Below, in pieces: positions 565-64,000 of a stretch of DNA of 64,000 nt (positions within the stretch are counted from its first letter, which is position 1; every line of letters starts with the position of its first letter). The position numbers were made by a program, and so were the translations under genes. This DNA comes from Rhizobium sp. NFR03. Its GTDB lineage: Bacteria > Pseudomonadota > Alphaproteobacteria > Rhizobiales > Rhizobiaceae. The stretch is from positions 1 through 64,000 of the forward strand of contig NZ_FOGR01000012.1 in the NCBI RefSeq assembly GCF_900111275.1, given 5' to 3'. Below the pieces are notes generated by a model that saw only the letters and a program-made list of their open reading frames with translations, did no database searches and was not told the DNA's origin.

Positions 565-663
565 GTTTTTCGGACTCCTGCTAAACAGTACCGGACCTAC
601 GCATATAGCAAGTCCGGGTGACCAGGTCCATCTTCAGCCTAGTTAAATGTCAGGAGACGGAAG

Positions 664-1422: not shown

Positions 1423-1461
1423 ACCTCACCATCCGAAATCCACCTTCGAAGGTCCAGACTC

Positions 1462-2406: not shown

Positions 2407-2483
2407 CTTTTGGTCAATTGGATGGCCACTTGGCCTCCCTTGAGACTGGCCGGTGATTGTGCTGAGAAACTAGCTTGCCCGCG

Positions 2484-2509
2484 GCCCCGACGACACGGCG
2501 TGTCGGGGC
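2484..2509 (+). terminator. Strong hairpin after the SDR/hydrolase pair
   Basis: GCCCCGAC at 2484-2491 pairs with GTCGGGGC at 2502-2509, extended by a G-T pair. It lies about 80 bases after the hydrolase stop and before a convergent gene. There is no T-run after it, so intrinsic termination is uncertain. Confidence 0.4.
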
Positions 2510-2619
2510 ATTACGGCCGGTGTATCAACTAACCCGGCTCTTGCAGGTACTGTATGCTGGAATACTGAAAGTGCATGGAACGATGCCGGTATCGTGACGA
2601 ATTGCGGAACAGGAATGCT

Positions 2620-3630
2620 CTAGGTCTCTTGCAGAAAATAGCGGACTGCGGGTTCGATAAACTCACTATTTTCCCACGTGGGATATTCGGCTCGGATGTG
2701 TTCTATCAAATGCCGATCGACGTTAGTTGCCAACCCGATCGATTGGCGAACGTTTCCAAAATATGCCAACACTTCCGCCAAGATCTCGGGCCCACCTATG
2801 CTGCCATGTCCCGGCACGACCAGATTTGGTTGCAACTTCAACATGTCTCCAAGTGCTATCTCCCATTGGGAGATGTTCATGTCTTGCGCGGTAATCATGG
2901 GCGGAAAGAGTGGCACGATCGGGAACATGCGCTCCTCAGCCAGGTCTCCTGTGAAGACTATGCGCTCATCAGGAAGGAAGACAATCTGGTCGCCCGGTGT
3001 ATGAGCTTTTCCCCATGTCCGAAATTCTACCGTCCGGCCCCCGAGATCCAGTGTGGTATGGTCCTGATCGTATGTCTGGTCAGGCGGTGTGAGCACAATG
3101 TTGTCGAGCAGGTACCTGTGGTTGGGGGGCAGGATGTTGGTTCTGAAGCCGTCAAGAAGCTTCTGGCCCGCTCGGCCAAGATATTCCTTTTGCAAGGCGT
3201 TATAGTAGATGCGGCCGTTGTTCTTGAAGACCTGCGCTCCGAAACCATGCTCAGGATGGGCATGTGTGACGGTGAGCACGACTTGCCGCCCGGGCGCAAG
3301 TCGTCTGGCGAGTGCCAGGACGCTTTCAGCGCTATCTATCCCGAGACCGCAATCGACGATGAGAACGGTATCTCGGCCAACTATGATACCTATATTGGGT
3401 ACCAACGGAACCCGTTTGTCCAAAAGGATAAAAACGCCCGATGCCACTTCCACGGGGAAGCGTGCGTCGACCACCGGCAGAGGGCGTTTCGGAAGCGGCA
3501 ACGCTGCTGCGGATTCCTGGCCTGTCGCAACCTCGCTTGAGGCTCCGAAAGCAATCGCACCCAACGCAGTAAGTTGCAGCATCTGGCGGCGCTGAAAATG
3601 AGTGTTCGAAGACATTGCCCTGTAAGTCAT
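2620..3630 (-). CDS. Exported MBL-fold metallohydrolase
   Basis: Product of 336 residues from the ATG at 3628-3630, which has GAAGGA about eight bases upstream. The open frame extends further, but without a ribosome site. A twin-arginine-like leader (FQRRQMLQLTALGAIAFGA) precedes the mature part, suggesting Tat export to the periplasm. The metal signature is THAHPEHG (His123, His125, Glu127, His128), with further ligands in GKAHTPGD, FTGDLAEE and VVPGHG. The usual HxHxDH aspartate is a glutamate here. It resembles the QuiP/metallo-beta-lactamase-type SoxH-like hydrolases. It stands alone, convergent with the hydrolase gene on its left. Confidence 0.82.
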   Translation of the reverse strand: MTYRAMSSNTHFQRRQMLQLTALGAIAFGASSEVATGQESAAALPLPKRPLPVVDARFPVEVASGVFILLDKRVPLVPNIGIIVGRDTVLIVDCGLGIDSAESVLALARRLAPGRQVVLTVTHAHPEHGFGAQVFKNNGRIYYNALQKEYLGRAGQKLLDGFRTNILPPNHRYLLDNIVLTPPDQTYDQDHTTLDLGGRTVEFRTWGKAHTPGDQIVFLPDERIVFTGDLAEERMFPIVPLFPPMITAQDMNISQWEIALGDMLKLQPNLVVPGHGSIGGPEILAEVLAYFGNVRQSIGLATNVDRHLIEHIRAEYPTWENSEFIEPAVRYFLQET

Positions 3631-3909
3631 GAATTCATCCTTCGAATTGATGGTCGTGCTGTCAACTATGAGCGTGGCGCTCATCCTTCCCATCCCGAAA
3701 GCGCTGATTGAAGCAAAGACGATTCTATCGATTTTCAGCATGTAGCCGTATGGATCAGCCAGACTTCAACTGTGGCTGATGCTGGGGATCGCTGGTTTCG
3801 ATTCCAAACCATCGACTACGATCGAACGTGGTTCACTGATCGAGGAAGCTTATGTTGGATCAACAAGCCGGAAGAGGTATCGCCCGGCTCGTTGTCACCG
3901 AAAGAAGGA

Positions 3910-12126: not shown

Positions 12127-12563
12127 TCAATTACACCAACTCCGACGTGATCCGTCCCACTTCCGCGCCAGGCCTTCGGCAATGAGGATTTCGCCGACAG
12201 ATCGATTGCCGCGAAAAACGACCCTGAGTTCCGGCCAAAGCGATCCTCGTCTCTCGCTGTGCTCTTCAAGAAGATTGGACCCGAGTTGAGGATGTCGAGA
12301 AGACGCTGTTTTGCAGCCATGCCGCGTCGGCGTTCACGTTCGCATCTCGGAGGGCTCAGCTCTGGAGTGTCGATGTCGGCAATTCTGATCTTCACGCCTC
12401 GAAGCCAGAAGGTATCACCATCCACGACGCAGGTGATCCTCTGCCCGCTTTCACAAATCGAGAATTGCTCATTCGGTGTCTTTGGTTGCCGCGCTAACCC
12501 CGCGTTTGAAAAGCCGCATAACATCATGATGGCGAAGCTGGCAACGGTCGGCGATGCTCTCAA
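12127..12563 (-). pseudogene. Thermonuclease (SNase-like) gene with a frameshift
   Basis: The 5' part reads a leader (ASFAIMMLCGFSNAGLARQ), then CVVDGDTFWLRGVKIRIADIDTPE (in two pieces: VVDGDTFW and KIRIADIDTPE) and DEDRFGRN, all typical of SNase-type nucleases. Near 12230 the frame is lost. In the -1 frame the conserved end continues as LRVVFRGNRSVGEIL, then AEGLARKWDGSRRSWCN and TGA at 12127. One missing T in GAGTTCCGG explains it. The start is TTG at 12561-12563, overlapping the traG stop, with GAGGAG eight bases upstream. The full protein would be a secreted nuclease co-transcribed with traG. Confidence 0.75.
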
Positions 12564-14533
12564 TCCTTAATCTCCTCAATGTATATCACGCCCATGTCAC
12601 TGGCCTTGGGCTGTTTGATGGCCGGACTGTGGAACCGGTTCTCTCCAACACAGGCCTTCATCTCCGCCCGTCTAAACCAGACGGCGCGCCCGCATCGAAG
12701 CGGAGCATTTCCCGACGTGAAGACGATCTGCTCGTCACTGCGCATGCGCAACACTTCATGCGGCAGGATCAGCGGCCGGCGGCTGAGCTGCTTCGATCGC
12801 GATCGTGACGACCCTTTCATTCCGGAAGATCTGTTTGTCTGGTCGACCTCGACGGTGGTGTCGCCGCAGCGCTTCGAGATGTAGTCAGCCGTATCGGGAT
12901 CGTTGATGGCTGCGAACGAAATCCACGATGCGGATTCGAACCATTTGCTGGTCGCATCGCGGCCGCCATAGGCCTCGCGCATCTGGCCGAGCGACTGAAA
13001 GATCATCGTCAGCGTGATGCCGTATTTGCGGCCGGCGTCGCGGGCGGTTTCGAGAATGCGCAGATAGCCGAGACGTGCCACCTCGTCGAGGAGAAAGAGG
13101 GTGCGATCCTTCACGTTGCCGTTGCGGTTATAGATGGCATTGAGCAGCGAACCGATCACCACACGCGCCAGCCCTGGATGGGCTTCCAGCACCTTGAGAT
13201 CGAGCGCGATGAAGATGTCCGTCTCGCCGTTTGCGAGATCGTCGGTCGAGAAACTGTCGCCGGATACCAGGCCGGCATAGTTCGGGTAGGACAGCCAGTG
13301 TGTTTCCTTGACGGCATTGGCATAGACACCGGAAAATGTCTCCGGCGTCATGTTGACGAAGACGGCGACATTCTCCTTCACAAAATTCGAACCCGACTGT
13401 TCGTAGATCTTCGTCAGGCGTGCCCGAAGCTGCGGCTCTGGTTCGGAGAGATTGGCCCGGACTCGGCGCAAAGTCTGATCTTTCTCGTCGGTGTGGCCGG
13501 ACAGGCAAACGTCGGCGATCAGTGCGGTCAGAAGCTGCATGGCCGAGGCCCTGAAGAAGTCCTCGCGGGCGGACGCCGTGCGCGCATTGTCGGTCATGAT
13601 CCACGTGGCGACGGCGACGATGTCCTCTTCCTTGGTATTGCCGTGACGGCCGATCCAGTCGAGCGCATTGAAGCCGACACCAGACGCGGCGGGATCGAGC
13701 ACGATCACCTTGCGGCCGGCCTGACGCCGGTGCTCGATCACCATCGGCGCGACCTCGCTCGACGGATCCAGCACCACGAGGCCGCCGCCCCATTTGAGCG
13801 CGGTTGGGATCGTCACCGAGGTCGTCTTGAATCCACCGGATCCGGCAAAGACGATGCCATGCGATGATCCGAAGGAACCATCAAAGCAGAGCAGCGGTGA
13901 CTTGCCTCCCGCTCCCCAGCTTTGTTGATCATCAGCGCGAAACGGCAACGCGGCAACACTGTCGCGATCGACGCGATAACGTTCGCCGATGACGATACCG
14001 CCGGCTTCGGGAAATAGCTTTGCAGCTTCGGGCTGTTTCATCCAGTCGGCCTCGCCGTGGACAGCGCGTTTGCCGCCGATCCGCTTCGGGGCTGCCATTG
14101 CGAAGGCGGTATTCCCCTTGATCGCGACCCGCAAGGCAAAGACGCTTCCGATGAAGGCGACGGCCGAGCCGAGCATGGTTGCAGGGTCGGCGTAGGCGAG
14201 AACCGATTGACCGGCCGGGACGTCGCTGGCAATAGCGGCCAGTCTAACGGCCTCCCGTGTCATAGCAATGATAATGACCACAGCATTTCCAGCCAGCACG
14301 CTTAGACCGGCGGCCTTGATATTCGCCGAACCATGGATGGCGAACAGCGCAACAACGCCGATCGCGGCGGCGCCCACATAGGGCAGGGCGAGCCCCGCGC
14401 GGCCCAGTGTCAGCTTCGTCGGCGCTGATGTTCCGAGTGCCGCCAGCCGATGTTCCATGCCTGACGTCAGGATCATGGCTGCGACCATAATTGCCGCGGG
14501 CAGGATTGCCAGAAGCAGCCTATTCGCCGTCAT
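12560..14533 (-). CDS. traG: Conjugative coupling protein TraG (VirD4 family)
   Basis: Product of 657 residues, the size of Ti/Sym plasmid TraG. Several membrane segments fill the first 140 residues. The ATPase domain has a Walker A variant [10 protein letters not shown] near residue 223 and a Walker B region [13 protein letters not shown]. TraG is a hexameric inner-membrane ATPase that delivers the TraA-DNA complex to the Trb channel. The start overlaps the end of traD by 14 bases, and traC lies just upstream, giving the usual traC-D-G operon reading away from oriT. The 18-bp tra box at 15110 should control it through TraR. Confidence 0.95.
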
Positions 14534-14735
14534 CGCTGAAGGCCTCCGCGCCGATTGCCATCAGTCGAGCCTTCTCCATCTCGTCGCCCTTGATCCGCCT
14601 GTTGGCGTCGATCAGCAGGCCGAGCAACAGAGCACGCTTCTCGTAGCGCAGTCCGGCTTTAACGATCAGGCCGCCGAGCTCGATTTTTTCGCGCGTGTCC
14701 TTTTTGCGCGCCTCTGCCGTCGCTGATTTTGCCAT
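14520..14735 (-). CDS. traD: Conjugal transfer protein TraD
   Basis: Product of 71 residues from the ATG at 14733-14735: [20 protein letters not shown], then [21 protein letters not shown]. This is the small TraD of Ti-type plasmids, unrelated to F-plasmid TraD; it resembles helix-rich accessory proteins of the relaxosome. It sits between traC (four-base gap) and traG (overlap), and the longer open frame upstream is a shadow of traC. Confidence 0.9.
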
Positions 14736-14739
14736 CCGC

Positions 14740-15036
14740 TCAAACCTCACCAGCCCCGCCCGCATCCGCGCCAGGCGACTGCGCCGTGAACGGCTCACCG
14801 CCGCTTCCGCTCTCGCCGGTATTCTTTCTCCCGGTCGCAATGCCTTTGCCTCCGCGAAACCGTTTGGCGACGTCCTCGAAGGCAGCCTGAAGCTCTGCCT
14901 CGTCAATCTCGATTTCTCCGAGACCGGCCTTCAGTGCGATGCGGCCGATGCGTTCGGCCTCACGGGTCTCGGCCTGCTTCAGCTGATCCTGCAATCTTGC
15001 GATCTCTTCCCTGATCCGCGACGACGGTTTCTTCAT
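14740..15036 (-). CDS. traC: Conjugal transfer protein TraC
   Basis: Product of 98 residues: [20 protein letters not shown], a coiled-coil start, then [20 protein letters not shown]-type helices and a flexible Gly/Ala-rich end. It is the first gene leftward from oriT. In Ti plasmids TraC is a TraR-controlled relaxosome component. The start is 73 bases from the palindromic tra box, which fits activation by TraR. Confidence 0.9.
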
Positions 15037-15109: not shown

Positions 15110-15127
15110 ATCTGCAGATCTGCAGAT
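15110..15127. promoter_or_regulatory. tra box (TraR binding site) for traCDG and traAFBH
   Basis: A perfect 18-bp palindrome, ATCTGCAGATCTGCAGAT, lies between traC and oriT. It shares the GCAGATCTGC centre with the Ti-plasmid tra box, with changed outer bases. It can serve the divergent traCDG and traAFBH operons. Confidence 0.85.
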
Positions 15128-15178: not shown

Positions 15179-15212
15179 CCAAGGGCGCAATTATACGTCG
15201 CTGATGCGACGT
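15179..15212. other. oriT: oriT with predicted nic site
   Basis: CCAAGGGCGCAATTATACG is followed by the inverted repeat ACGTCGC-TGAT-GCGACGT (15195-15212), as in Ti-plasmid oriT. On the lower strand ATTGCGCC matches the RSF1010-type nic core, placing the nick between 15187 and 15188. Flanked by the divergent traC and traA genes. Confidence 0.88.
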
Positions 15213-15291: not shown

Positions 15292-18200
15292 GTGGCCATC
15301 GCCCATTTCTCAGCCAGCATTGTCAGCCGCGGCGACGGCCGCAGTGCCGTCCTGTCTGCGGCCTACCGGCACTGCGCTAAAATGGAATACGAGCGGGAGG
15401 CCCGCACCATCGACTATACCCGCAAGCAGGGCCTGCTGCATGAAGAGTTCGTCCTTCCCGCCGATGCCCCGAAATGGGCACGCGCAATGATCGCCGATCG
15501 GTCGGTGTCGGGAGCGGTCGAAGCCTTCTGGAACAGGGTCGAGGCGTTCGAGAAACGCTCCGATGCCCAGCTCGCCCGGGACCTGACCATCGCTCTTCCG
15601 CTGGAACTGACGCCGGAGCAGAATATCGCTTTGGTGCGTGACTTCGTGGAAAGACACATCCTCGCCAAGGGCATGGTTGCCGATTGGGTCTACCACGACA
15701 ATCCGGGCAATCCGCACATCCATCTGATGACGACATTGCGCCCGCTGACCGAAGATGGTTTCGGGGCAAAGAAGGTCGCGGTGACAGGAGAAGACGGCCA
15801 ACCACTTCGCACCAAAGCCGGTAAGATCGCCTACGAGCTTTGGGCCGGCTCCACCGATGATTTCAACAAGCTACGGGATGGTTGGTTCGAGCGCCAGAAC
15901 CATCACCTGGCGCTGGGCGGTATTGATCTTCGCATCGATGGCGGCTCCTACGAGAAGCAGGGCATCGCGCTCGAACCGACTATCCATCTCGGCGTCGGCG
16001 CCAAGGCGATCGAGCGCAAGGCGGAAGTGAGGGGTGTGCGTCCTGAGCTCGAGCGGATCGAGTTGAACGAGCAGCGGCGTAGTGAGAATGCCCGCCGCAT
16101 TCGCCGAAATCCCGGCATCGTGCTTGAACTGATCACGCGTGAGAGAAGCGTCTTCGATGAACGCGACGTCGCCAAGGTGCTGCTTCGCTATATCGACGAT
16201 CCCGGCATTTTCCAGCAGATCTTGGCACGCATACTCCAGAATCCGGAAACCCTGCGTCTGCAGCGCGACACGATCGAGTTCGCGAGCGGACAAAAATTGC
16301 CGGCGCGATACACCACCCGGGAGCTGATCCGGCTTGAAGCGGAGATGGCCCGACGTTCGCTCTGGCTGTCCAAGCGGGAAACGCAAGGTGTCTCCTCGAC
16401 GGTGCTGGCGGCGACCTTCGCGCGACACGCCCGGCTGTCGGATGAGCAGCGAGCTGCTATCGAGCACGTCGCCGGTTCCGCGCGCATCGCGGCCGTTGTC
16501 GGGCGTGCTGGTGCCGGCAAGACCACGATGATGAAGGCGGCACGCGAAGCCTGGGAACTCGGCGGATATCGCGTCGTCGGTGGAGCGCTTGCCGGAAAGG
16601 CGGCAGAGGGTCTTTCGAGCGAAGCAGGGATCCAGAGCCGCACGCTGGCATCCTGGGAACTGCGCTGGAAGAAGGACCGCGACACGCTCGATGCCAAAAC
16701 AGTATTCGTCATGGACGAGGCCGGCATGGTCGCATCAAGGCAGATGGCCGGCTTCGTGGAGGCGGTGGTCAAGTCCGGCGCCAAGCTCGTGCTTATCGGT
16801 GATCCCGAGCAGCTCCAGCCGATCGAAGCGGGCGCCGCGTTTCGCGCCATTGCCGATCGTGTCGGTTACGCCGAACTCGAAACCATCTATCGCCAGCGTG
16901 ATAACTGGATGCGCAAGGCCTCGCTCGATCTGGCGCGTGGCCGCGTCGGCGAAGCGCTCGCTGCCTATCGTTCAGAGGGCAGGGTGCTTGGCTCGGAACT
17001 GAAGGCTCAGGCTGTCGAACACCTGATCGCTGACTGGAACCGTGATTACGATCCTGCAAAGTCTATGTTGATGCTGGCGCACCTGCGCCGCGACGTCCGC
17101 CTGCTCAATGTCTTGGCGCGTGAAAAGCTTGTCGAGCGCGGCATCCTCAGTGAAGGCCATGGCTTTAGGACTGCAGATGGCGTCCGGCATTTCGACGCCG
17201 GTGACCAGATCGTCTTCCTGAAAAACGAAGGTTCGCTTGGCGTCAAGAACGGCATGATCGGCCGTGTCGTCGAGGCAGCGCCGAACCGGATATCCGTCGT
17301 GGTCGGCGAGGGTGATAAGCGACGTCAGGTTACAATCGAGCAACGCTTCTACAACAATCTCGATCACGGCTACGCCACGACGATCCATAAGAGCCAGGGT
17401 GCGACGGTCGATCGCGTGAAGGTGCTGGCAAGCCTCTCGCTCGATCGCCATCTCACCTATGTCGCGATGACGCGCCACCGCGAGGATCTGGCGCTCTATT
17501 ATGGCCGGCGTTCCTTCGCCAAGGCAGGCGGTTTGACAGAAATCCTGTCGCGCAGGAATGCGAAAGAGACCACGCTCGATTACGAGCGCGGTGGCCTCTA
17601 CCGCCCGGCACTCGCGTTTGCCGAAAACCGCGGCCTGCACATTGTCCACGTCGCGCGAAACCTGCTGCGCGACCGGCTCGACTGGACGCTGCGCCAGAGT
17701 TCAAAACTTGCCGATCTCACCGCCCGTCTTCGAGCAGCCGGCGAACGGCTTGGCCTGCTGCAAACCCTGAAATCACATACGAACAAGGAGACCCGCCCGA
17801 TGGTGTCAGGCGTAAAACTGTTCCCCGTACCACTGAGCGATGCCGTTGATCAGAAGGTTGCGGATGATCCCGCTGTGAAGAAGCAATGGGAGGAAGTCTC
17901 GACGCGCTTCCGCTATGTGTTCGCCGATCCCGAGACCGCCTTCCGGGCCATGAACTTCGACGCGGTCCTCGCCGACAAACAGGTGGCAATGCAGACACTC
18001 GACAAGCTTGCGGTCGAGCCCGCGTCGATCGGACCGCTCAAGGGAAAGACCAGTATTCTCGCCAGCAAGTCTGACCGAGAGGCCCGCCGCGTCGCGGAGG
18101 TCAACGCTCCAGCACTGAAACGCGACATCGAAACCTACCTCCGAATCCGCGAGGTCGCCGTACAGCGGATCGAGGCTGAGGAGAAGACGCTACGCCAGCG

Positions 18201-18594
18201 CGTCTCGATTGATATCCCGGCGCTGTCGCCAGCGGCGCAAAGCGTGTTGGAACGGGTGCGCGACGCGATCGACCGCAACGATCTCCCTGCCGCGATGGCT
18301 TGCGCGCTCAGCAATCGCGAAACCAAAGCCGAGATCGACGGTTTTGGCAAGGCGGTGGCCGAGCGATTCGGAGAGCGGACCCTGCTCACCAACACAGCGC
18401 ACAGGCCTCAAAGTCAGCTCTTCGATAAGCTCTCAGAGGGGCTGGCACCCCAAGAGAAGGAGCGGCTGAAAGAAGCCTGGCCGGTGATGCGGACGGCTCA
18501 GCAGCTGTCGGCTCATGAGCGCACGGTTGAAACGCTGAAGCAGGTGGAGGACTTGAAGCTCGCTCAGCGTCAGACACCGGTGATCAAGCAATGA
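15292..18594 (+). CDS. traA: Conjugative relaxase/helicase TraA, copy 1
   Basis: Product of 1,100 residues from the GTG at 15292 ([18 protein letters not shown]), preceded by AGGAGC; the open frame starts three codons earlier at a TTG. The N-terminal MobA/MobL-type relaxase has an active-site Tyr-rich start and the metal-binding HIH in [13 protein letters not shown] near residue 143. A RecD/TraI-type helicase follows: Walker [11 protein letters not shown] near 404, Walker [10 protein letters not shown] near 473, and [19 protein letters not shown] near 700. TraA nicks oriT and leads the strand into the recipient. traF overlaps its stop. A second traA of the same length but different sequence lies at 59141. 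Confidence 0.95.
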
Positions 18595-51131: not shown

Positions 51132-52367
51132 TTAAGCGGCTACGCTTTGGCCGAACGGTGTCATCCTGACGTGCATTGACGATAGGCCGGTGAACTGGAA
51201 CGTGCCGCCGGTGTAGGGAACGATTGGGATCTCCCTCGCCACTTCGACTTTGGAAACGAGGTTCGCTACGGAGGTGTACACGATACGCGCCTCTGACCGG
51301 GCCAGCCACATTCCCAAGCATGTGTGGACACCATAACCAAAGCCGAGGTGCCCAGTCGGATCGCGGTCCATGTCGAACGAATCCCCGTCAGGGAATTTCG
51401 CGTCATCCCTGTTTGCCGAGCCCGAAAGCAGTTTGACCTGGGAATTTGCCGGGATGCGGAAGCCCGCCACCTCAACGTCCTCTGTTGTGATCCTGGCAAG
51501 CATCTGCGGTGCAGACCGGTGACGGGCTAGTTCTTCCACGAAACGGCCGACATCCTCCGGATTCCCGCGTAACCTCTCGAGAAGGTGCGGTTGCTCCGCC
51601 AACGTTAGAAAACCGTTTGAAATCAAGATGGCGGTTGTATCGAACCCGGCGAGAAACATGAAGACAAGGAAATGCAAGGTATCTTCCTCGCTGATGAGGC
51701 CCTGCTCGATTTGATCCGCGAAGGCCGCAACAATCGTCCCGTTCTGGTTTCTTCTGGCTTCTTCCAGCTTCCCTCGCAAGAACTCGATCAGCTCGAGAAA
51801 TCCTTTTTCGTCACCGTCGCAGCCGGGAGCGTGTCGCGCCACTCTTCCCTGGAAGAAGACTGACTTCACTGCAAGATCGCGCAATCTCTCGAAGTCTGTG
51901 AGAGGAAAACCCAGAAAGGCACAGATAGTCCCCATCGTCATTTGTTCGGAAAACTCGCTGCATATGTCACCTCCCCCACGGGCCAATATTGGGAGAAAGT
52001 ATCTGTCGAAGGTTTCCTGCAGATTTTCCTGGAACGCCGAGATCGCCTTTGGCGTGAACGCCGAAGCTACAAGCTTGCGCATTCGCGTATGTTCCGGTGC
52101 ATCCATGATAGTGATGAACCGGAACTTGTCCTGCTTAACAACAGCAGACGAGAAGCGTTTGAAATCACGCAGTCCGTTCTGAACGTCGGCAAAGCGAGCA
52201 ACAAGATAAAGATCACCTTGAGGCACATGCGCCTTCAGGACCGGCGCATTCTCTCGCATGAACTTGAAGTACTCAAAAGGGTTCGCCTGGATTTTTTCGC
52301 TATGAGGGTCGTATGGGCCCAGCTCTTCCGGCCATGAAATGTCGAGAACGTCAGGGACTTCGCGCAT
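51132..52367 (-). CDS. Cytochrome P450 2
   Basis: Product of 411 residues. Heme loop LGFGYGVHTCLGMWLAR with Cys350, I-helix FMFLAGFDTTAIL, ExxR in EELARHR. It differs widely from P450 1, so the two should act on different positions or compounds. It is the first gene of the P450/ferredoxin operon, with a promoter and palindrome just upstream. A 180-base gap separates it from P450 1. Confidence 0.92.
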   Translation of the reverse strand: MREVPDVLDISWPEELGPYDPHSEKIQANPFEYFKFMRENAPVLKAHVPQGDLYLVARFADVQNGLRDFKRFSSAVVKQDKFRFITIMDAPEHTRMRKLVASAFTPKAISAFQENLQETFDRYFLPILARGGGDICSEFSEQMTMGTICAFLGFPLTDFERLRDLAVKSVFFQGRVARHAPGCDGDEKGFLELIEFLRGKLEEARRNQNGTIVAAFADQIEQGLISEEDTLHFLVFMFLAGFDTTAILISNGFLTLAEQPHLLERLRGNPEDVGRFVEELARHRSAPQMLARITTEDVEVAGFRIPANSQVKLLSGSANRDDAKFPDGDSFDMDRDPTGHLGFGYGVHTCLGMWLARSEARIVYTSVANLVSKVEVAREIPIVPYTGGTFQFTGLSSMHVRMTPFGQSVAA

Positions 52368-53495: not shown

Positions 53496-53686
53496 TTTAT
53501 GATGATGCCGAAACCCAAGCGAATCCAGCAGATAGCGGAATTGGGAGCGCCAGTGATCAAGGTGGCACTTTTACGACAGCGTTGACCTGATCCACGAAAC
53601 CAAAGCCACTCCTGGGCGGAATGAGAGAATTATAAACGCGGCACGGCCGCCTCGGAAAATGAGCACGTGATGTTCATCTCGGCTCT

Positions 53687-54991
53687 TCAGCGATACAGGC
53701 CGGAAAACACAATGTCCTGATCTACCAGTACGTTGAAATTGTACCCCGGTCGGATCTCCAACGTCGGCTGCACATCCATATTCCGCTGGATCGTACGGTC
53801 GGCCACCCGCCCGAAGGTCTCGGCAAAATTGCGTCTCGCCGCATCCGACGCCGTATCCTGGGTGGCCAACGTCGAACTCTGCGGGACAGCCATATCAATG
53901 CCAGTCCCGATCAAGGCGATCATGACCGCCGAGCCGAAGGTTTTAAGATAGTGGTTGTGCACCTTGTCATTGAAGCCACCGTACCCTTCAGCACCCGTGC
54001 CGGCCATGCCGCCGATTTGCAAAGTCGAGCCGTTTGGGAAGATGATGTCTGACCAGACGACGAGCACGCGGCTCTGGCCGAATGACACCTTGCTATCGTA
54101 ACGACCGAACAGTTTCGTGCCTTGCGGGATCAGCAGGCGATGGCCTGTTGCGCTGTCATAGACATTCTGGCTGACCTGTGCGGTGATACGCCCTGGAAGA
54201 TCTGAATTGACGCCTGTTATCAACGTCGCCGGAATAACCGAGCCTCGCTTCAGTTCGTAGGGGGACTGTTGCGGCACGACGCGGTTCGGCAGGTAGCCGA
54301 GATCCTTGAGGTCGGCATTGAAGAAATCTTCCTTAGAGCTCTGTCCGTTGGGATCGACATGTGGTCCACCCAAGCCAGCACGCAGTGCTGCGGCGTAAAG
54401 ATCGGAGGCGTTTGCGCTCGCCGCGGCTGTCGTCGTCCGGGCTCCGGCGCTCTCATTTTTTTCCGACCGCGCGTCCAGCTTGCCGCGATCGATGGCGAGA
54501 GGCGCGTCGTAGGCGGAGTCTCGTGCTTGCATTCGGGCCATCCGCTGGCGTTGCTGCTCGCGCAGAACCTGTTCCTGCTGCTCACGGGCGAGCCGCGCTC
54601 GCCACACCTCTTCCGACTCCAGTTCCGCTCCGCGCCGTTGCTCTTGTCTCTGTTCGGGCTGCGTGAACGGATTCGCCGCCTTCTCTTCGGCCTGCTTCGT
54701 CTCGACTGGGGTCGGCTGGAACGTCGTCTGCGGCTGTGGCTCGCCGATGATGCCGTCGGCGACGCCCCTCTTGATCTGGTCGGCATAGGTCGAGGCCGGA
54801 TTGCCCGAACTGGTGTCCGGACCACTATCCTTGCCGAAGTAAAGCCCGCGCGAGGCAAGCCCATAGAAGATAATGCCGAGAAAGACGACCAACAGCACGA
54901 TCACGACGATGACCGGCACGCGGTTCACACGCTTGATGCCGGACGTTGTATCACTGTTCGCGGCACCGCCAAGCCTGAGAGACTGCACCAT
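53687..54991 (-). CDS. trbI: Conjugal transfer protein TrbI (VirB10 family)
   Basis: Product of 434 residues. An N-terminal membrane anchor (VPVIVVIVLLVVFLGIIFYG), a long Gln/Glu/Arg-rich linker, then the VirB10-type C-terminal domain (SPYELKRGSVIPATLITGVN, ... LLIPQGTKLFGRYDSKV). It bridges inner and outer membranes in the mating channel. Last gene of the trb operon in its direction. Confidence 0.94.
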   Translation of the reverse strand: MVQSLRLGGAANSDTTSGIKRVNRVPVIVVIVLLVVFLGIIFYGLASRGLYFGKDSGPDTSSGNPASTYADQIKRGVADGIIGEPQPQTTFQPTPVETKQAEEKAANPFTQPEQRQEQRRGAELESEEVWRARLAREQQEQVLREQQRQRMARMQARDSAYDAPLAIDRGKLDARSEKNESAGARTTTAAASANASDLYAAALRAGLGGPHVDPNGQSSKEDFFNADLKDLGYLPNRVVPQQSPYELKRGSVIPATLITGVNSDLPGRITAQVSQNVYDSATGHRLLIPQGTKLFGRYDSKVSFGQSRVLVVWSDIIFPNGSTLQIGGMAGTGAEGYGGFNDKVHNHYLKTFGSAVMIALIGTGIDMAVPQSSTLATQDTASDAARRNFAETFGRVADRTIQRNMDVQPTLEIRPGYNFNVLVDQDIVFSGLYR

Positions 54992-55003
54992 GATGTTTCC
55001 CCC

Positions 55004-55486
55004 TCACCCGCGCCGCATGAGCGACAAAGCGCTTGTCGGTGTCGCACCCGCTGTCGTCACGGTGTAGGCCCGACCAACCTCGACGCTACTGGTCGAGAGC
55101 CGTGCCAGCACCTGGCCGTCATAGGGCACGATGACATAGGCGAGCGGGATGACGGCCGCGCCGCCATCCGTCTTCTGATCGGCGACAACGGCATAGCCCC
55201 ATCCCTTCAGGGCTGCTTCAAGTGCCTGCCCGAACGCCGAACCGTCTTGTTTGAGCACAACGGTCGCCTTCCCCTGTCCGATCTGTTCGGCAAGACGGCT
55301 GACCATATCGCCCGCAATGGCGCCCGCCGCCGGTCCGGAGATCTCTGGCGGTGCCGCGCTAGCGGCGAGACCGTCGGTGCCCATCGACTGGCAGCCGGAA
55401 AGGAGCATGGCGAGGCCACTGGCTATGGCCAGGCAGCGGAAGGGTCCGAGGCTGTTCGCGCTGCGGCGAAGGAGGTTCAGCATCAT
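55004..55486 (-). CDS. trbH: Conjugal transfer lipoprotein TrbH
   Basis: Product of 160 residues. A lipobox LLSGC with Cys32 follows a hydrophobic leader, so it should be a lipoprotein. The rest ([20 protein letters not shown], ... [17 protein letters not shown]) matches TrbH of Ti-type systems. It overlaps trbG by four bases and precedes trbI by 12. Confidence 0.88.
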
Positions 55487-56337
55487 CGCCCTCCCCTGCT
55501 GATTGTCACCTTCTGCTGTTTCCAGCCAACGCCTGAGACGAGGACAGCGCGATCGATATTGTAATCGACCACCATCATGTTGTTCTTCATACGATAGTTG
55601 ACGATGCGGTTCTGTCCGCCGGAGACGACGAAGAGAACCGGCGCATCCTGACCGGAGATCGACCGCGGAAACTGGATGTAGGTCTTTTGTCCATCCGAAT
55701 AGACCCGGGTCGGCCGCCAGCCGGCACTGCCGGAGACGGAATAGGCAAAGGTCAATTGCTCAGCCGTAACGCCGGCACCGGGGATCGTGCTGGCTTCCAG
55801 CCTTGCGTTGACGTCGGCAAGTTTTGTCGAGACGTCCTCGGGGTATTCAAAACCGACGCGTGCCATATACTGCGTGGCATGCGATTTCAGCTGGATATGA
55901 TAGGTCCGCCGCGACGTCGTCACGACCATCGACGTGACCAGACCCGGCTCCGATGGCTTGACGATCAGATGGATCGCCTGCCCACCTGATGCACCCGAGG
56001 TCGCGGGTTCCACCTTCCAGCGCACAGTGTCGCCGACCAGAACGTCGCGAACGACCTCGCCACCCTGAAGCTCGATGTCGCAGACCTGCAACGGCGAGCA
56101 AACGACAGACGGCTGCACTTCTCCATAGAGGAAAATCACCTTTCCATCGGCGCCTTTCGTCACGAGCCCGCGGCTTCCACGCCATTGTGTCGAAATGCCC
56201 ATGCCTTTCGCCTCGTTGGCAGTGACACCATCGGCGGCAATTGCGTGGAAGGGGGCGAAACCCATCACCGGGAAAATGAGCAGCATGGCGGCGCTCGCAG
56301 TCAGCGTGGCCCATATTCTGAATTGTCTTATGTTCAT
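55483..56337 (-). CDS. trbG: Conjugal transfer protein TrbG (VirB9 family)
   Basis: Product of 284 residues from the ATG at 56335-56337; a TTG at 56358 overlapping the trbF stop is an alternative. A signal peptide ([19 protein letters not shown]) leads to a VirB9-like domain ([38 protein letters not shown]). With TrbI and TrbH it forms the outer-membrane core. Confidence 0.93.
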
Positions 56338-56354
56338 GTTGGGAGCCAGGCCTT

Positions 56355-57017
56355 TCAAAGCTGTGCAGTCCAGTCGAAGTCGCGGAGATAGAGACCGATG
56401 GGATTGAGGCGGATGACGCCCTCGTCCTGAGGTGGCGTCAATGTCACGGTGGCGATCCCGCGGAAGCGGCGCGTGGCTGTCTCCTTGCCGCGGCGATCCC
56501 GCTCGAACTCAGTCCAATCGATCTGGTAGCTCTGGTTCGACAACGCGACGATGTTGTTGACCTCGATTGCCACTGTCGCGGTCTTCGCCTTTTCGAAGGG
56601 TGAATTCGAGCGAAACCACGCGTTGACCTTTTCGGTCGCGGGATCGGAGGTGCGCAACAGCCCATAGGTTCGGTCGATATATTGCTTCTGCACGACCGCA
56701 TCCGGTGTGACGGATCGGAAGTTCGACACGAAACTGCCGAGGGTAGCGCGCACCACGCGCGGATCGGCATACTCAATCTGCTGCGGGAAGCCGGCATTGA
56801 CTGATGTGCCGAGCTTGTGGACTTCGACGATATACGGGATCAGCTTGACCTGTGTGCTCTGGTAGAGCGCATAACCAAAGCCGACGACCGCCATGGTCAT
56901 TCCGGCTATGCCGACGACGCGCCACGCGGCTGCCGCTTTGACGTACGAGCCATAACGTTCGTTCCATTCGTTGCGCGCGGCGATGTAGGGATTATCTGGA
57001 ACATTCTGTCCGGCCAT
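56355..57017 (-). CDS. trbF: Conjugal transfer protein TrbF (VirB8 family)
   Basis: Product of 220 residues. One membrane helix ([20 protein letters not shown]) is followed by the VirB8/TrbF periplasmic domain ([20 protein letters not shown], ... [19 protein letters not shown]). It assembles the inner-membrane complex. Its stop and the trbG TTG overlap, so the genes are tightly packed. Confidence 0.93.
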
Positions 57018-57032
57018 TCTTTCAGCGTCCCG

Positions 57033-58223
57033 TCACTTGCTGTCGTTAATCGGTGGTGGTGGAGGCGTTGTGCCTGGCCGGCCGGATGGTTGATCGAGTT
57101 TGGCGTTGGCAAGGCCGAGCATCGATCCGGCATATGCGCCGGGCGAACCAATCGCCTTTTCCTTTGCTGCCGAGCCGACGGCACCAGCGGCTCCGCCGAT
57201 CCCGGCCTGCATGCCGCGCAGCGCCGCACTGGCAAGAGACGCGCCCCCTGCCCTTGCGGCACTGGCGGCCCCGAATCCTCTGTTGGCCGCGCCGATCGTT
57301 AGAAACCCGGCGCCGAGTGCAGCGGATGCGGCCTGCCCGCCATGACGAATGGCTTCCATGCCGCCGCCGACCGATGCGCCCTGGACCACGCCCTGTAAAA
57401 TGGGCGGCACATACATGGCGATGACGAAGACGACGACGGAGATACCGGCAATCGCCAGCGTCGTGATGAACTGTTCCGATGTCGCGGTGGGCGCCTCTGC
57501 CAGACCAAGAAGGATGTCCGAGCCGATCTTGGCGATCATCACCAGGGCCATCAGCTTCATACCGACGGAGAAGGCATAGACCAGATACTTGATCGCGAAG
57601 TCCTTGGTATGGGAGGAGCCACCGAGCCCAAGCATGATCATGCCGGCGAGCAGGCCGACATACATCTCGACCATGACGGCCACAAAGATCGCAGCGACCA
57701 GGCTAAACGACACGACGACCACTACCATGGCGAAGACGGCGGCGATCGCCAGTGCATTATCCTCCCAGAGACCGAACTTCGCCTGTTCCGACATCTTCGT
57801 TGCGACACGAATGCCGGCATCGAAGATGTTGGCGGGCGATGCCGAGCCGCCACCGGCGCCAATCTGATAGAGGCTGTCCACCACGGCCTTGGCGAAATCA
57901 GGTCCTCTGTCGAGGATGAAGGCAAACAGGCCGATGAACATGATGCGCTTGACGAGTTCGGCGAACCAGCTTTCGAGCGAGGCGGCGTTGATCGCCAGCC
58001 ATACGGCAGCGATCCCGACCTCGATGCCGGCGAGGATCCAGAACAACGAGCGGGCGGCATTCATCACCGTCGTCTCCCAGCCTTTTGCAGCGGTGACGAC
58101 GGAGTTTTCGAGTGTGGTCAGCATCTGGCCCTGTTGCGCCAGCGCGGGCGTGGTCGCCAGAAGAACGACCGCCATCGCGATAAACACCCGTTCGAGCGCG
58201 CGGGAAGAGGGAATGGCTACCAT
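57033..58223 (-). CDS. trbL: Conjugal transfer protein TrbL (VirB6 family)
   Basis: Product of 396 residues. A signal-like start (FIAMAVVLLATTPALAQQ), at least five further hydrophobic segments and an Ala/Gly-rich tail fit the polytopic channel protein TrbL. Its start overlaps the trbK end by seven bases. Confidence 0.92.
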   Translation of the reverse strand: MVAIPSSRALERVFIAMAVVLLATTPALAQQGQMLTTLENSVVTAAKGWETTVMNAARSLFWILAGIEVGIAAVWLAINAASLESWFAELVKRIMFIGLFAFILDRGPDFAKAVVDSLYQIGAGGGSASPANIFDAGIRVATKMSEQAKFGLWEDNALAIAAVFAMVVVVVSFSLVAAIFVAVMVEMYVGLLAGMIMLGLGGSSHTKDFAIKYLVYAFSVGMKLMALVMIAKIGSDILLGLAEAPTATSEQFITTLAIAGISVVVFVIAMYVPPILQGVVQGASVGGGMEAIRHGGQAASAALGAGFLTIGAANRGFGAASAARAGGASLASAALRGMQAGIGGAAGAVGSAAKEKAIGSPGAYAGSMLGLANAKLDQPSGRPGTTPPPPPINDSK

Positions 58224-58450
58224 CGAGGCTTCATCTCCTGGCCGCCGCGGATGTCGCGGCCGGAATTCCCGCCAAAGAACTCTTCGCGATGTCGGCGCTG
58301 TTCTTCATCGGAGGAAGAATTCGCTGCGGCCGTACCCGACCCTGAGACTGGCGCGGCTTGCGGTTGGACGATGATCCAGGTGATTGCGCTCGCACCGGCC
58401 GCGGAACCGATTGCGACGAGGGCAATAAAGAGGAACAGACGCGGGCTCAC
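58217..58450 (-). CDS. trbK: TrbK-like entry-exclusion protein
   Basis: Product of 77 residues with an N-terminal hydrophobic segment (LFLFIALVAIGSAAGASAIT). It is in the trbK position between trbJ (ATGA overlap) and trbL. TrbK normally blocks entry of related plasmids as a lipoprotein, but no cysteine is present here, so it should not be lipid-anchored. The tail GRDIRGGQEMKPRW closely resembles the end of TrbJ. Confidence 0.82.
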   Translation of the reverse strand: MSPRLFLFIALVAIGSAAGASAITWIIVQPQAAPVSGSGTAAANSSSDEEQRRHREEFFGGNSGRDIRGGQEMKPRW

Positions 58451-59028
58451 CAGCGCGGCTCCATGGTCTGGCCGCCCCTGATGTCACGCTCGGTTCCGCT
58501 GAAGAACTGTTCAAGCCGTGCTTGCGCCAGATCCTTTTGCGCCTGCTCGGACTGGTACCAGGTCCCCATCATTGTCATCTGCTGGGAAACCAGACCGCGC
58601 AGTTTCTGCATCTGGGCGACCTGCTGCGCTGCGATCCCGTGGCCGACCTGCAATGCCTTCATCTGGCCGTCGGCTGTTTCCGACATCGATCGCAGCGAGG
58701 ACATGGTATTCTCCTCACTGGAGAACTGTTCGGCCGTGAGATTGGCGGCCTTCAACGTGCCGGCAATCGTGTCGCGATTGGTGTCGGACCAGTTCTGATA
58801 GGTCGTGGAGAAGCTCGCGCCGTCAGGCAGGTTGCTCTTCATGTCGGCGAAGCTCTGGAAGCGCTGCTTCAGCACATCGTCGACGTTGCCCATGGAGAAG
58901 GCGACGCCCTGTCCCTGGTTGACGACGTTCTGGAGGTTCTTCAGATCGCTTTCGACCTGGCCCCATATGTGGTTTGGGAGCTGCGCGGTGTTCTGCAGCA
59001 TGTTCTTGTAGATGTTGAGCTGGTTTTA
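58447..59028 (-). pseudogene. trbJ: trbJ, 5' end missing, fused to oriT remnant
   Basis: From the junction the frame reads NQLNIYKNMLQNTAQLPNHI (first full codons only) and continues as a normal TrbJ/VirB5-type protein (QVESDLKNLQNVVNQGQGVA, ending ERDIRGGQTMEPRW). A TAA made by the oriT sequence lies immediately before it. The signal peptide and the first part of the protein are gone; about 190 residues are left of the roughly 255-270 usual for the family. A Met inside could start a shorter product, without export. Upstream genes trbE-D-C-B and traI are absent. Confidence 0.9.
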
Positions 59029-59047
59029 TACGTCGCTGATGCGACGT
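59026..59047. other. oriT remnant at the trbJ/traA2 junction
   Basis: TTATACG and the inverted repeat ACGTCGC-TGAT-GCGACGT (59030-59047) are identical to oriT at 15191-15212. The nic core (CCAAGGGCGCAA) is replaced by trbJ sequence, so the site should not be nicked. Confidence 0.88.
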
Positions 59048-59140
59048 GCTTGCTCACGGCCCTGGCGGGGCCGCCATAGGGTTGCCGCTCGACCTGGCTG
59101 CTCTTTGGGGACGAGGTTCGAACCGGGAGTGTCTTACGCC

Positions 59141-62100
59141 GTGGCCATCGCCCATTTCTCAGCCAGCATCGTCAGCCGCGGCGGCGGCCGCAGCGTGGTG
59201 CTGTCTGCGGCCTACCGGCACTGCGCGAAGATGGAATACGAGCGCGAGGCCCGTACCATCGACTACACGCGCAAACAGGGGCTCCTACACGAGGAGTTCG
59301 TCTTGCCTGCCGATGCCCCGAAATGGGTCCGCGCGATGATTGCCGACCGCTCTGTTGCCGGAGCTTCGGAAGCCTTCTGGAACAAGGTCGAGGCCTTCGA
59401 GAAGCGTTCCGACGCGCAACTCGCTCGCGACCTGACCATAGCGCTTCCAGTGGAGCTGTCGTCCGAGCAGAACATCGCCCTGGTGCGGGACTTCGTTGAT
59501 AAGCATATCCTGGCAAAAGGTATGGTCGCAGACTGGGTTTATCATGACAATCCCGGCAATCCGCATATCCATTTGATGACCACATTGCGCCCGCTGACGG
59601 AGGACGGGTTCGGGTCGAAGAAGGTTGCGGTCAATGGCGAGGACGGCCAGCCGGTCCGTACGAAGTCCGGGAAAATCCTGTATGAGCTCTGGGCCGGGTC
59701 GACGGATGACTTCAACGCCCTGCGCGATGGATGGTTCGAGCGGCTGAACCATCATCTGGCGTTTGGCGGAATCGATCTCCGTATCGACGGCCGTTCCTAC
59801 GAGAGGCAGGGTATCGACCTCGAACCGACGATCCATCTCGGCGTTGGCGCCAAGGCGATCGAGCGCAAGGCGCAGGAGCAGGGCGTCCGGCCAGAGCTCG
59901 AACGAATCGAACTGAACGAACAGCGGCGGTCGGAAAACACCCGCCGCATTCTGAACAATCCAGCCACCGTGCTCGACCTGATCACGCGAGAGAAGAGCGT
60001 CTTCGATGGACGCGATGTCGCCAAGGTTCTGCATCGCTATGTCGATGATCCGGCTGTCTTCCAGCAGCTGATGTTGCGCATCATGCTGAACCCGGAAGTT
60101 TTGCGTTTGCAGCGCGACACGATCGAGTTTGCGACCGGAGAAAAAATACCCGCCCGTTATTCGACCCGGGCGATGATCCGGCTGGAAGCGACGATGGTGC
60201 GACAGGCGTTGTGGCTGTCGAACCGGGACGGTCACGCTGTCTCTGGCGCTGCTCTGGACGCAACGTTCCGGCGGCATGAGCGGTTGTCTGAGGAGCAGAA
60301 AGCGGCGATCGAGCGGATCGCCGGATCCGTGAGGATCGCGGCCGTGGTTGGACGCGCGGGCGCCGGCAAGACCACGATGACGAAAGCTGCCCGCGAAGCG
60401 TGGGAACTGGCCGGATACCGCGTTCTCGGCGGTGCGCTTGCCGGCAAGGCGGCCGAGGGGCTGGAGAAGGAAGCCGGCATCGAGAGCCGGACGCTAGCGT
60501 CATGGGAGCTGCGCTGGAACCACGGCCGAGACGTTGTGGACGACAAGACGATCTTCGTCATGGACGAGGCCGGCATGGTGGCCTCGAAACAGATGGCCGG
60601 CTTTGTCGATGCCGTCGTCAGGGCAGGCGCCAAGATCGTGCTGGTCGGCGATCCCGAACAGCTCCAGCCGATCGAGGCGGGTGCTGCCTTCCGCGCCATC
60701 GTCGACCGCATCGGTTATGCCGAACTCGAGACGATCTATCGCCAGCGCGAGGACTGGATGCGCAAGGCATCACTCGATCTGGCCCGGGGCAATGTGGAAA
60801 AGGCGCTGACCGCCTATGATGCCAATACCAGGATCACGGGAACGCGCCTCAAGGCCGAGGCGGTCGAGCGACTGATCGGGGACTGGAATCACGATTACGA
60901 TCAGACGAAGACAACGCTGATCCTCGCGCATCTGCGTCGTGACGTTCGGATGCTGAACATTATGGCCCGCGAAAAACTCGTCGAACGCGGCATTGTCGGG
61001 GAGGGCCATGTCTTTAAAACGGCTGACGGTGTCAGGCAGTTCGACGCGGGCGACCAGATCGTTTTCCTGAAGAACGAAGGTTCACTCGGCGTCAAGAACG
61101 GCATGATCGCGCACGTCATTGAGGCCGCACCAAACAGGATCGTTGCTGTCGTCGGAGAGGGTGATCAGCGCCGGCAGGTCATCGTCGAGCAACGCTTCTA
61201 CAGCAATCTCGATCATGGCTACGCCACCACGATCCATAAAAGCCAAGGCGCGACCGTCGACCGTGTGAAGGTGTTGGCGAGCCTCTCGCTGGACCGGCAT
61301 CTGACTTATGTGGCGATGACCCGCCATCGCGAGGATTTGCAGCTTTACTACGGCCACCGGTCTTTCGCCTTTAACGGCGGCCTGGCCAAGGTACTCTCCC
61401 GTAAGAATGCCAAGGAGACCACGCTCGATTACGAGCGAGGAAAGCTTTACCGCGAGGCGCTGCGGTTTGCGGAAAGTCGCGGCCTCAACATCGTCCAGGT
61501 GGCCCGCACGATTGCGCGCGACCGGCTCGACTGGACACTGCGACAGAAGACGAAACTGGTCGATCTCGGCCAGCGCCTTGCCGTCTTTGCAGAGCGTCTC
61601 GGTCTGCACCACCCCTTAAAAACCCAAACGATGAAGGAGGCCGCGCCGATGGTTGCAGGCATCAAGACATTCCCCGGTTCTGTTGCCGATACGGTGGAGC
61701 AAAAGCTCGACACTGATCCAGCCCTTAGGAAACAATGGGAAGAGGTCTCGACCCGCTTCGCTTATGTGTTCGCCGATCCCGAGACCGCATTCCGGGCGAT
61801 CAACTTCGATGCGGTGCTAGTGGATAAGGAAACGGCCAAGCTGGTGCTTCAGACGCTGACGACCGCCCCGGCGTCAATCGGACCACTGAAGGGCAAGACC
61901 GGCATTCTTGCCAGCAAGACTGAGCGCGAGGACCGTCGCGTTGCAGACCTAAATATTCCGGCCCTGAAGCGCGATCTTGAGCAGTATCTGAGGATGCGCG
62001 AGACCGCCGTGCAGCGGCTGCAGGCTGACGAGAAGGTATTGCGTCAGCGCGTGTCGATCAACATCCCGGCATTGTCGCCGGCAGCACATGTGGTGCTGAA

Positions 62101-62443
62101 GCGCGTGCGTGATGCGATCGACCGCAACGATCTGCCGGCGGCCATGGCCTATGCACTGAGCAATCGGGAAACCAGGCTGGAAATTGACGGGTTCAACCAA
62201 GCCGTCACCGAACGCTTCGGCGAGCGAACCATGCTCACCAATGCCGCGCGCGAACCCTCGGGAAAGCTCTTCGACAGACTCTCAGACGGGATGCAGCCCG
62301 AGCAGAAAGAGCGTCTGAAGGAAGCCTGGCCGATCATGCGCACGTCCCAGCAGCTCGCCGCTCACGAGCGCACCGTCCAGACCCTGCGTCAGGCCGAAGA
62401 TTTGCGGCTCGCCCAGCGCCAGACGCCGGTGATGAAGCAATGA
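59141..62443 (+). CDS. traA: Conjugative relaxase/helicase TraA, copy 2
   Basis: Product of 1,100 residues from the GTG at 59141 ([20 protein letters not shown]); the open frame reaches back to 59012 through the oriT remnant. Exactly as long as copy 1 and collinear by eye, with many substitutions (for example [20 protein letters not shown] in place of [20 protein letters not shown]). All motifs are kept: [42 protein letters not shown]. It looks intact. No tra box is seen in front, and only half an oriT. traF2 overlaps its stop. Confidence 0.95.
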
Positions 62444-62967
62444 GGCGGCGGCTTCTCCTGTTCCTGGCCGGCCTGGGCGGGATGATCGCCGCTCTGGCGG
62501 CAATCGCGTACTTCGGCGGCTTTCGATTGAACCTGACGCCGAGCGAGCCGCTTGGGCTCTGGCGTATCATGGCCCTGCAGCGTCCGGTCGAGGTCGGGGA
62601 TCTCGTGTTTATCTGCCCACCGCCGACCGCGTCATTCGAGGAGGTACGCCGCCGCGGCTATGTCAGGCGTGGCCTCTGCCCCAGTGGCTTTGCGCCGCTG
62701 ATCAAGACAGTGGCGGCACTTCCCGGACAGCACATCGAGATCGGCGCGAATGTCACTGTCGACGGCAAGCCTCTCGCCTCATCGATCGTTCGAACGAGCG
62801 ATGGCGAGGGCAGGCCGATCACACCGTTCAAAACCGGCATCGTGCCACTGAGAAATCTGTTCCTTCACTCATCCTTTGCGAGCTCCTATGATAGTCGGTA
62901 TTTTGGACCGATTCCCGACACTGGCCTTCTCGGCCTGGCGCGGCCGGTCCTCACTTTCGAACCGTAA
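62440..62967 (+). CDS. traF: Conjugative signal peptidase TraF, copy 2
   Basis: Product of 175 residues. Membrane start ([20 protein letters not shown]), S26 box [12 protein letters not shown] (Ser35), [15 protein letters not shown] (Lys89), ending [20 protein letters not shown]. One residue shorter than copy 1 and clearly diverged. The gene overlaps traA2 by four bases, and traB2 starts within it. Confidence 0.93.
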
Positions 62968-64000
62968 TTGGCAGCTAACCTGCCTGCTCATCGCCGCATC
63001 TGTCGCCTGCGGCTGGATAGCCTGGAGCGGTCATGTCCTAACCCTTCCGGTCGCTGTGTTGTTTCCGGCGCTCTGGGGGATGTCGCCGGCGCGGCTGACG
63101 GCGTTGCTCGTGTCGGCCGGATATTTTTTAGGCGCCTCGCGTGGGCTGCCGCAGGGCGTCGCCAACTTCTATGCCGCCGATCTCTGGCCTGGGCTTCTGC
63201 TCTGGACAGCTGCTTCGCTCTCCTTCACCGGCGTGCATGCGGCGCTCTGGAAGCGTCGACCAGAAGGCAAGTCTCCTGGAGTATGTCGAACGGGAATGGC
63301 AATGGTGGCGCGCTATCTGGCGGCGGCGATGCTCTTAGGCCTGCCGCCCCTCGGCATAACTGGCTGGGCGCATCCGCTCACCGCTACTGGCGTGCTATTT
63401 CCGGGATGGGGATGGTGGGGGCTGGTCGCGATGACAGCCGGCCTCGCGATGATGACGTCGCGATATTGGCCGGCTGTCGCCATCGCCCTGGGAGGATTCT
63501 GGCTCTGGTCCGCCGCTATGTGGACATCACCGAATCTACCCGAGGGATGGAAGAGCGTCGACCTCGAACACGGCGCGAGCCTCGGACGAGACGGCTCGCT
63601 TGACTATCACCGTGACCTGATCGCAACGGTGCGCGCGGCTGCAGGAGAGAAAACCCGGTTCATCGTTCTTCCTGAAAGTGCACTGGGCTTCTGGACGCCG
63701 ACCGTGGCGAGACTTTGGCAACAAGGCTTGCGAGCCTCGGAGCTCACTGTGATCGCCGGCGCGGCTGTCATCGACCCGGGCGGCTACGACAATGTCATGG
63801 TTGCGATTTCGGCTGACGAGGCACGAATTCTCTATCGCCAACGCATGCCGATCCCGGTGTCCATGTGGCAGCCTTGGCGGGCATGGACCGGGCAGGGTGG
63901 AGGAGCCCGCGCAAACCTTTTCGGCAATCCAGTTGTGCAAAGCGACGGCCAGAAGCTCGGCGTGCTGATCTGCTACGAACAGCTTCTCCTCTGGCCGGTC
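62888..64000 (+). CDS. traB: Conjugal transfer protein TraB, copy 2 (runs off the right edge)
   Basis: From the ATG at 62888 the frame is open for 371 codons to the window end. It begins [20 protein letters not shown], has the membrane part ([20 protein letters not shown]) and the nitrilase-like residues [11 protein letters not shown] and [11 protein letters not shown], all aligned with TraB copy 1. Roughly 50 codons should be missing. A plus-strand frame starting at 62968 is a shadow. Confidence 0.92.

Follow-up and report, generated by a model that had tools for sequence, protein, structure and literature searches.

A blunt trbJ-oriT joint five bases from a predicted nic site in Rhizobium sp. 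NFR03 and its possible origin by plasmid deletion

Transfer genes of intact Ti-type plasmids and of Rhizobium sp. NFR03

The Ti-type repABC conjugative plasmid pAtLMG292b (complete, 155,815 bp) carries the genes trbI-H-G-F-L-K-J-E-D-C-B-traI on the minus strand up to 155,438, repABC at 1-3668, and traG-D-C, oriT, traA-F-B-H-M and traR at 62-72 kb. Between the two points of this plasmid that correspond to the joint described below, 150,460 in trbJ and 64,992 in oriT, lies an arc of 70,346 bp (5,355 + 64,991). The same order is found on one contig of another genome, G028, with an arc of 42,450 bp including traI, repABC and traCDG, and in both cases the trbJ and oriT ends are collinear and have the same orientation. 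More generally, trbJ and traA share a strand in 24 of the 25 contigs with matches to both, the exception being G176; the rows for this count were read by eye, with our own genome left out and two candidates scored per genome. The plasmids pAtLMG292b, pAt15-1187-1-2a2 and pQ15_94_4 all share with the locus described here traG-D-C, oriT, traA-F-B-H, traM and traR, as well as the oriT core and its inverted repeat. Two side observations concern these relatives. A gene annotated as ligD (end-joining ligase), near error-prone polymerase genes, lies at 51150-52202 of pAtLMG292b (L192), within the arc that separates trb from tra. The trb operon of pY9 from Rhizobium sp. Y9 (L008:12829-13653) is seemingly cut right after trbJ, with no upstream trb gene annotated, and the frame next to trbJ resembles the end of trbE by eye.

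The window, that is, the whole stretch of 64,000 nucleotides that was analysed (positions 1 to 64,000 of contig NZ_FOGR01000012.1, C33 in our numbering), has the same trb genes in the same order as pAtLMG292b. The mating-pair formation genes trbI, trbH, trbG, trbF and trbL of Ti type occupy 53687..58223 on the minus strand (NCBIfam, above cut-off), and trbK was placed between trbL and trbJ by DNA match to annotated relatives. The trbJ gene itself is a remnant at 58447..59025 on the minus strand, which keeps codons 78-269 of 269 and has lost its 5′ part (tblastn with TrbJ of pAtLMG292b; NCBIfam TrbJ). What distinguishes the locus from pAtLMG292b-type plasmids is that the arc from trbJ to oriT is gone and that its ends are joined.

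On the plus strand to the right of the joint follow half of an oriT and a second, full-length traA at 59141..62443, encoding a MobA_MobL relaxase with a helicase domain of 1100 amino acids (Pfam on ORF 59012-62443; tblastn, 1-1100 of 1100), the reading frame of which is open through all 1100 codons. This frame, 59012-62443, includes an ATG at 59012 inside the antisense of trbJ, a possible 43-codon extension created by the joint. The second copies of traF and traB come next (62440..64000, plus strand; NCBIfam traF, traB), traB being cut by the end of the window. Past the window lies DNA matching traH, followed by traM and traR, which tblastn located at 65103-66177 of the contig; the right part of copy 2 matches the traA-F-B-H-M stretch of pAtLMG292b at the DNA level. 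The right end of C33 (66266-66594) recurs with 100% identity where C12 starts and again on C29; this repeat is probably an insertion sequence. Copy 1 of the tra genes consists of traG, traD and traC at 12560..15036 on the minus strand (NCBIfam; tblastn) and a full-length traA at 15292..18594 on the plus strand (Pfam; tblastn); no counterpart of traG-D-C was found for copy 2. The nearest relatives of the two halves around the joint differ: the trb part (53682-59025) has 89% DNA identity to pAtLMG292b, whereas the second tra part is ~91% identical to the loci L007 and L009 and 76% to pAtLMG292b.

The joint and the predicted nic site

The trbJ/oriT junction is present in the assembly at 59025|59026. 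Alignment to the intact trbJ and traA regions of relatives, proposed as a check in the preliminary description, places the break at this position on both sides and confirms that trbJ is sharply cut and joined to a second traA beside the predicted nic. The trbJ-side match ends exactly at 59025 in 26 of 30 loci and 3-12 bases short of it in the other four (two of the 30 are the same place, and the window's own loci were left out), and the oriT-side match begins at 59026 in five of five loci (copy 1, L007, L009, L017 and L029). In a BLAST search of the window the matches to L004, L008 and pAtLMG292b stop at 59025, and those to L007, L009 and copy 1 start at 59026. A few trbJ rows in the family-genome comparison extend one or two bases beyond 59025, as chance allows. 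On the oriT side the more distant pAtLMG292b aligns only from 59115, though its oriT core is present.

Aligned to both intact parents, the joint has no shared base. Intact trbJ reads GAGCTGGTT|CTGGATCTG, intact oriT reads CCAAGGGCGCAA|TTATACGTCGC, and the junction reads GAGCTGGTT|TTATACGTCGC; the base after the break in intact trbJ is C and the base before it in intact oriT is A, with T|T at the junction. The joint is thus blunt, with 0 bases of microhomology. An insertion sequence as the cause was dropped, as trbJ passes directly into oriT and the joint holds none, and recombination between the two oriT copies was dropped as well, the joint showing no such structure.

MobA of RSF1010 is reported to cut at TAAGTGCG/CCCT (PMC4814116). 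The nic position used here for TraA is a prediction by analogy; we found no mapped nic for this clade. The intact oriT of copy 1, at 15183..15212 on the minus strand, is composed of GGGCGCAATTATACG and the inverted repeat. Its minus strand reads TATAATTGCG/CCCTTGG (TTGCG/CCCTTGG) in the RSF1010 frame, and by this rule the predicted nic is 15185|15186, two bases off the 15187|15188 given previously. The junction corresponds to 15190|15191 of copy 1, on the inverted-repeat side, which makes the distance to the RSF1010-type nic five bases instead of four. The earlier statement that this is not a perfect oriT-oriT joint holds, whereas the bases lost are not three (TTG) but the five up to the predicted nic (TTGCG, minus strand).

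The oriT remnant of copy 2 (59026..59050) keeps the inverted repeat at 59030-59047 and has lost the nic-side GGGCGCAA, as seen by alignment and pattern scan; its nic box is replaced by trbJ DNA. If an oriT-traA module is defined by the inverted repeat and a GGGCGCAA nic box upstream of traA, copy 1 belongs to this class and copy 2 does not. The identity to copy 1 noted earlier for the sequence right of 59026 is exact for the 25 bases of 59026-59050, but the 5-kb copies are just 73% identical overall. A palindrome at 15110..15127, upstream of the copy 1 nic, resembles a tra box; its core is 72 bp from the nic, likewise in three relatives. The tra-box-like site before traA2 is lost from copy 2, and a second such palindrome at 64803 of the contig, between the traH-like stretch and traM, is retained. 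The exact palindrome core is found within 300 bp left of the nic in only 17 of the 102 canonical loci among the matches listed, so that its loss matters for this clade and not for all.

Missing parts of copy 2 and surveys for similar breaks

No second exact oriT core with a nic side was found in the genome, where matches with 2-3 mismatches occur at control level. A search of the genome for a second traG yielded just a 48% identical TraG on C12, and for a second trbE, besides the complete operon of C28, just a 26% relative on C9. The reciprocal joint, which would combine the traC-nic half with the 5′ half of trbJ, was sought and not found, the sole exact core with a nic side being that of copy 1. 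RepA, RepB and RepC of pAtLMG292b gave no tblastn match on the 66,606 bases of C33, and the copy 2 remnant therefore presumably rides on another replicon, which fits a cointegrate having lost one of its two rep regions. The contig C28 has a complete trb operon, traI and repABC. A profile search of the genome identified two Ku and one LigD above cut-off within 914-919 kb of C15.

The joint itself did not recur in the collections searched. A query of 1301 bases across it was covered to at least 80% in none of 277 matching plasmid-collection records, and the exact junction 20-mer was found in no viral contig. Of the other genomes compared, 296 of the family (with two candidates scored in each) and 6 of the genus, none has the same junction. 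A scan of 394 family genomes with a pattern of the inverted repeat plus eight upstream bases, which misses broken sites with T first, gave 56 matches in 47 genomes: 53 have GGGCGCAA, one has GGGCGCAC and one GTGCGCAA, both one-base variants, and one is the present junction, with no further broken nic site among the other 55. A second scan, of genome contigs, returned at least 117 inverted-repeat loci, 102 of them canonical among the matches listed. The 15 non-canonical ones of the listed 117, judged by eye, include nine one-base variants of the box, four TGCGCGC boxes with weak traA/traG relatives, L076 with a 34% relaxase relative and just 224 bases to its left, and L163, where no transfer gene was found and which was taken as a chance match; in none of the 117 listed loci is a Ti-type traA clearly fused to foreign DNA at the nic, L076 being a doubtful case. 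An intact oriT query was covered to at least 80% in 470 of 520 matching plasmid records, and none of the 60 rows sampled from these 520 has an outer edge 10 bases or less from the nic, four two-piece rows being judged on outer edges alone. With only one broken site in these surveys, either breakage near the nic seldom happens or its products seldom survive.

Several loci attracted attention for other reasons. At L066:6230-6285 (Agrobacterium vitis CG118) and at L154, both from one search and probably related, 28 bp are duplicated in tandem immediately to the left of oriT. The edge of this duplication is ambiguous over three bases with the predicted nic as one option; it is perhaps another repair event or a replication slip at the nick and would hint weakly at a nick origin. 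L133 (Agrobacterium rosae, ~3232 on the reversed locus) keeps oriT and traC, has no traA match in 4.7 kb rightward and diverges from its relatives shortly past the inverted repeat. L141 shows an intact oriT core at ~6309, and its 8 kb hold nothing that matches traA or traC at E 1e-4; this may be an orphan origin open to mobilisation.

Origin of the joint

As intact relatives carry trbJ and oriT in the same order and orientation, deletion of one arc yields the observed joint. A plain deletion would therefore suffice and no strange fusion would be needed, a point missed in the preliminary description, which rightly allowed for ordinary illegitimate recombination. We give roughly an even chance to the following reading: a single large deletion, in a Ti-type repABC conjugative plasmid or in a cointegrate that included such a plasmid, left the junction as its scar, with a break at the nic end joined to trbJ by Ku/LigD. 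The arc lost would begin within trbJ, take in trbE-D-C-B, traI, repABC and accessory genes, and finish with traG-D-C and the nic half of oriT. Both halves would once have been in one plasmid, but their nearest relatives differ, and they may instead derive from a fusion of two plasmids. One end would be a double-strand break that fell on the nic or no more than a few bases from it, most likely a TraA nick hit by a replication fork. Replication that passes over a nick at oriT can convert it into a one-ended break. Such a break would sit at the nic, and trimming of the nic-side end by about five bases, followed by blunt sealing to a break in trbJ through Ku/LigD end joining, would produce the joint as observed. 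In Rhizobium etli a loss of 1-6 bp is reported for 32 of the 34 end-joining events that were sequenced, and in the small-plasmid set described no microhomology was detected at deletions (PMC10932983). Both expectations of end joining, here a five-base loss and 0 shared bases, are seen at the joint, and the genome has genes for Ku and LigD, the putative joining agents. The deletion may plausibly have started from a TraA nick; the complete sequence of events, in which the nick becomes a double-strand break, Ku/LigD seals the inverted-repeat side to distant DNA, and the rep region and half of the transfer genes are deleted from a cointegrate, is put forward tentatively, as somewhat short of an even chance.

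The nick origin is argued from one event, and the same end-joining deletion with a break that fell near the nic by coincidence, unrelated to TraA, is a serious possibility, if a rather doubtful one. If the break was confined to the traC-traA gap (252-271 bp), a position within 5 bp of the nic is reached by chance in 11 of 270 cases (~4%), which is no proof of a nick origin, the finding having been picked after the fact. The 55 unbroken matches of the family scan, the 60 plasmid records with no outer edge near the nic and a trbJ end that has no nic-like site all favour coincidence too, whereas without the requirement that traA be kept the same 11 positions over the whole 42-70 kb arc bring the chance down to the order of 1e-4. 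We consider it improbable that a linear transferred strand lost five bases from its 3′ end (the inverted-repeat side) and was joined by that end to trbJ in a resident plasmid, in the manner of an imprecise T-DNA left end. The kept side would be the trailing 3′ end expected by RSF1010 polarity, five bases short, and the two halves differ in their nearest relatives; however, this reading requires two plasmids and a second, unseen joint while the gene order already fits a simple deletion, and C33 stops in a repeat past traR2, so that the other side of copy 2 is not readable.

An assembly or library artefact is very unlikely. The assembly is a draft of 34 contigs and the junction is in no other searched record, but the joint offers no overlap for an assembler to collapse on, the only paralogues of its flanks in this genome have diverged from them (85% and 79%), and the missing parts of copy 2 were not found elsewhere in it. 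Least of all do we expect that TraA made the trbJ-oriT joint on its own, by nicking off target and transferring the strand, the mis-joining by a TraA-type relaxase suggested at the outset. TraA1 and TraA2 are both full length, and MobA of RSF1010, also a MOBQ relaxase, is reported to recombine two oriTs on single-stranded DNA (PMC5572225), but the product should retain TTGCG up to the nic and these bases are gone, which contradicts this reading for any nic other than one placed five bases deeper in the repeat side. Nor did an oriT-like core turn up in trbJ: at the break, intact trbJ of pAtLMG292b agrees with the nic context in 5 of 17 positions, and its best match on either strand, 10 of 17, does not exceed the mean of 10.4 obtained after shuffling.

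We regard the junction as a new instance of something ordinary, a neat deletion scar on a plasmid. Judged from its sequence, copy 2 leaves a full-length relaxase gene with neither a predicted nic of its own nor a tra-box-like site upstream. Given the inverted repeat identical to copy 1 over 25 bases, TraA2 might perhaps act on the intact oriT of copy 1, to which the cis-preference reported for TraA of an R. etli plasmid runs counter (PMC6856555). If end joining acts on oriT nicks, conjugation would have a hand in the architecture of plasmids even without successful transfer, and if the nick-origin reading is true, the relaxase nick itself would be a source of plasmid restructuring; deletion ends near the nic would then be countable across plasmids, with one scar at present.

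Judged by titles and abstract openings, no literature report of a deletion ending beside a TraA nic was found. The R. etli end-joining scars described in PMC10932983 resemble this joint in the few bases lost and the lack of microhomology, and differ from it in that their break was made by I-SceI, whereas here we infer the cause of the break. With the relaxase-mediated oriT recombination reported for TrwC of R388 and MobA of RSF1010 (PMC5572225), the locus shares a joint beside the nic and, with MobA, the MOBQ class; in contrast to those recombinants, its joint is not exactly at the nic and the partner sequence is one without nic-like sequence.
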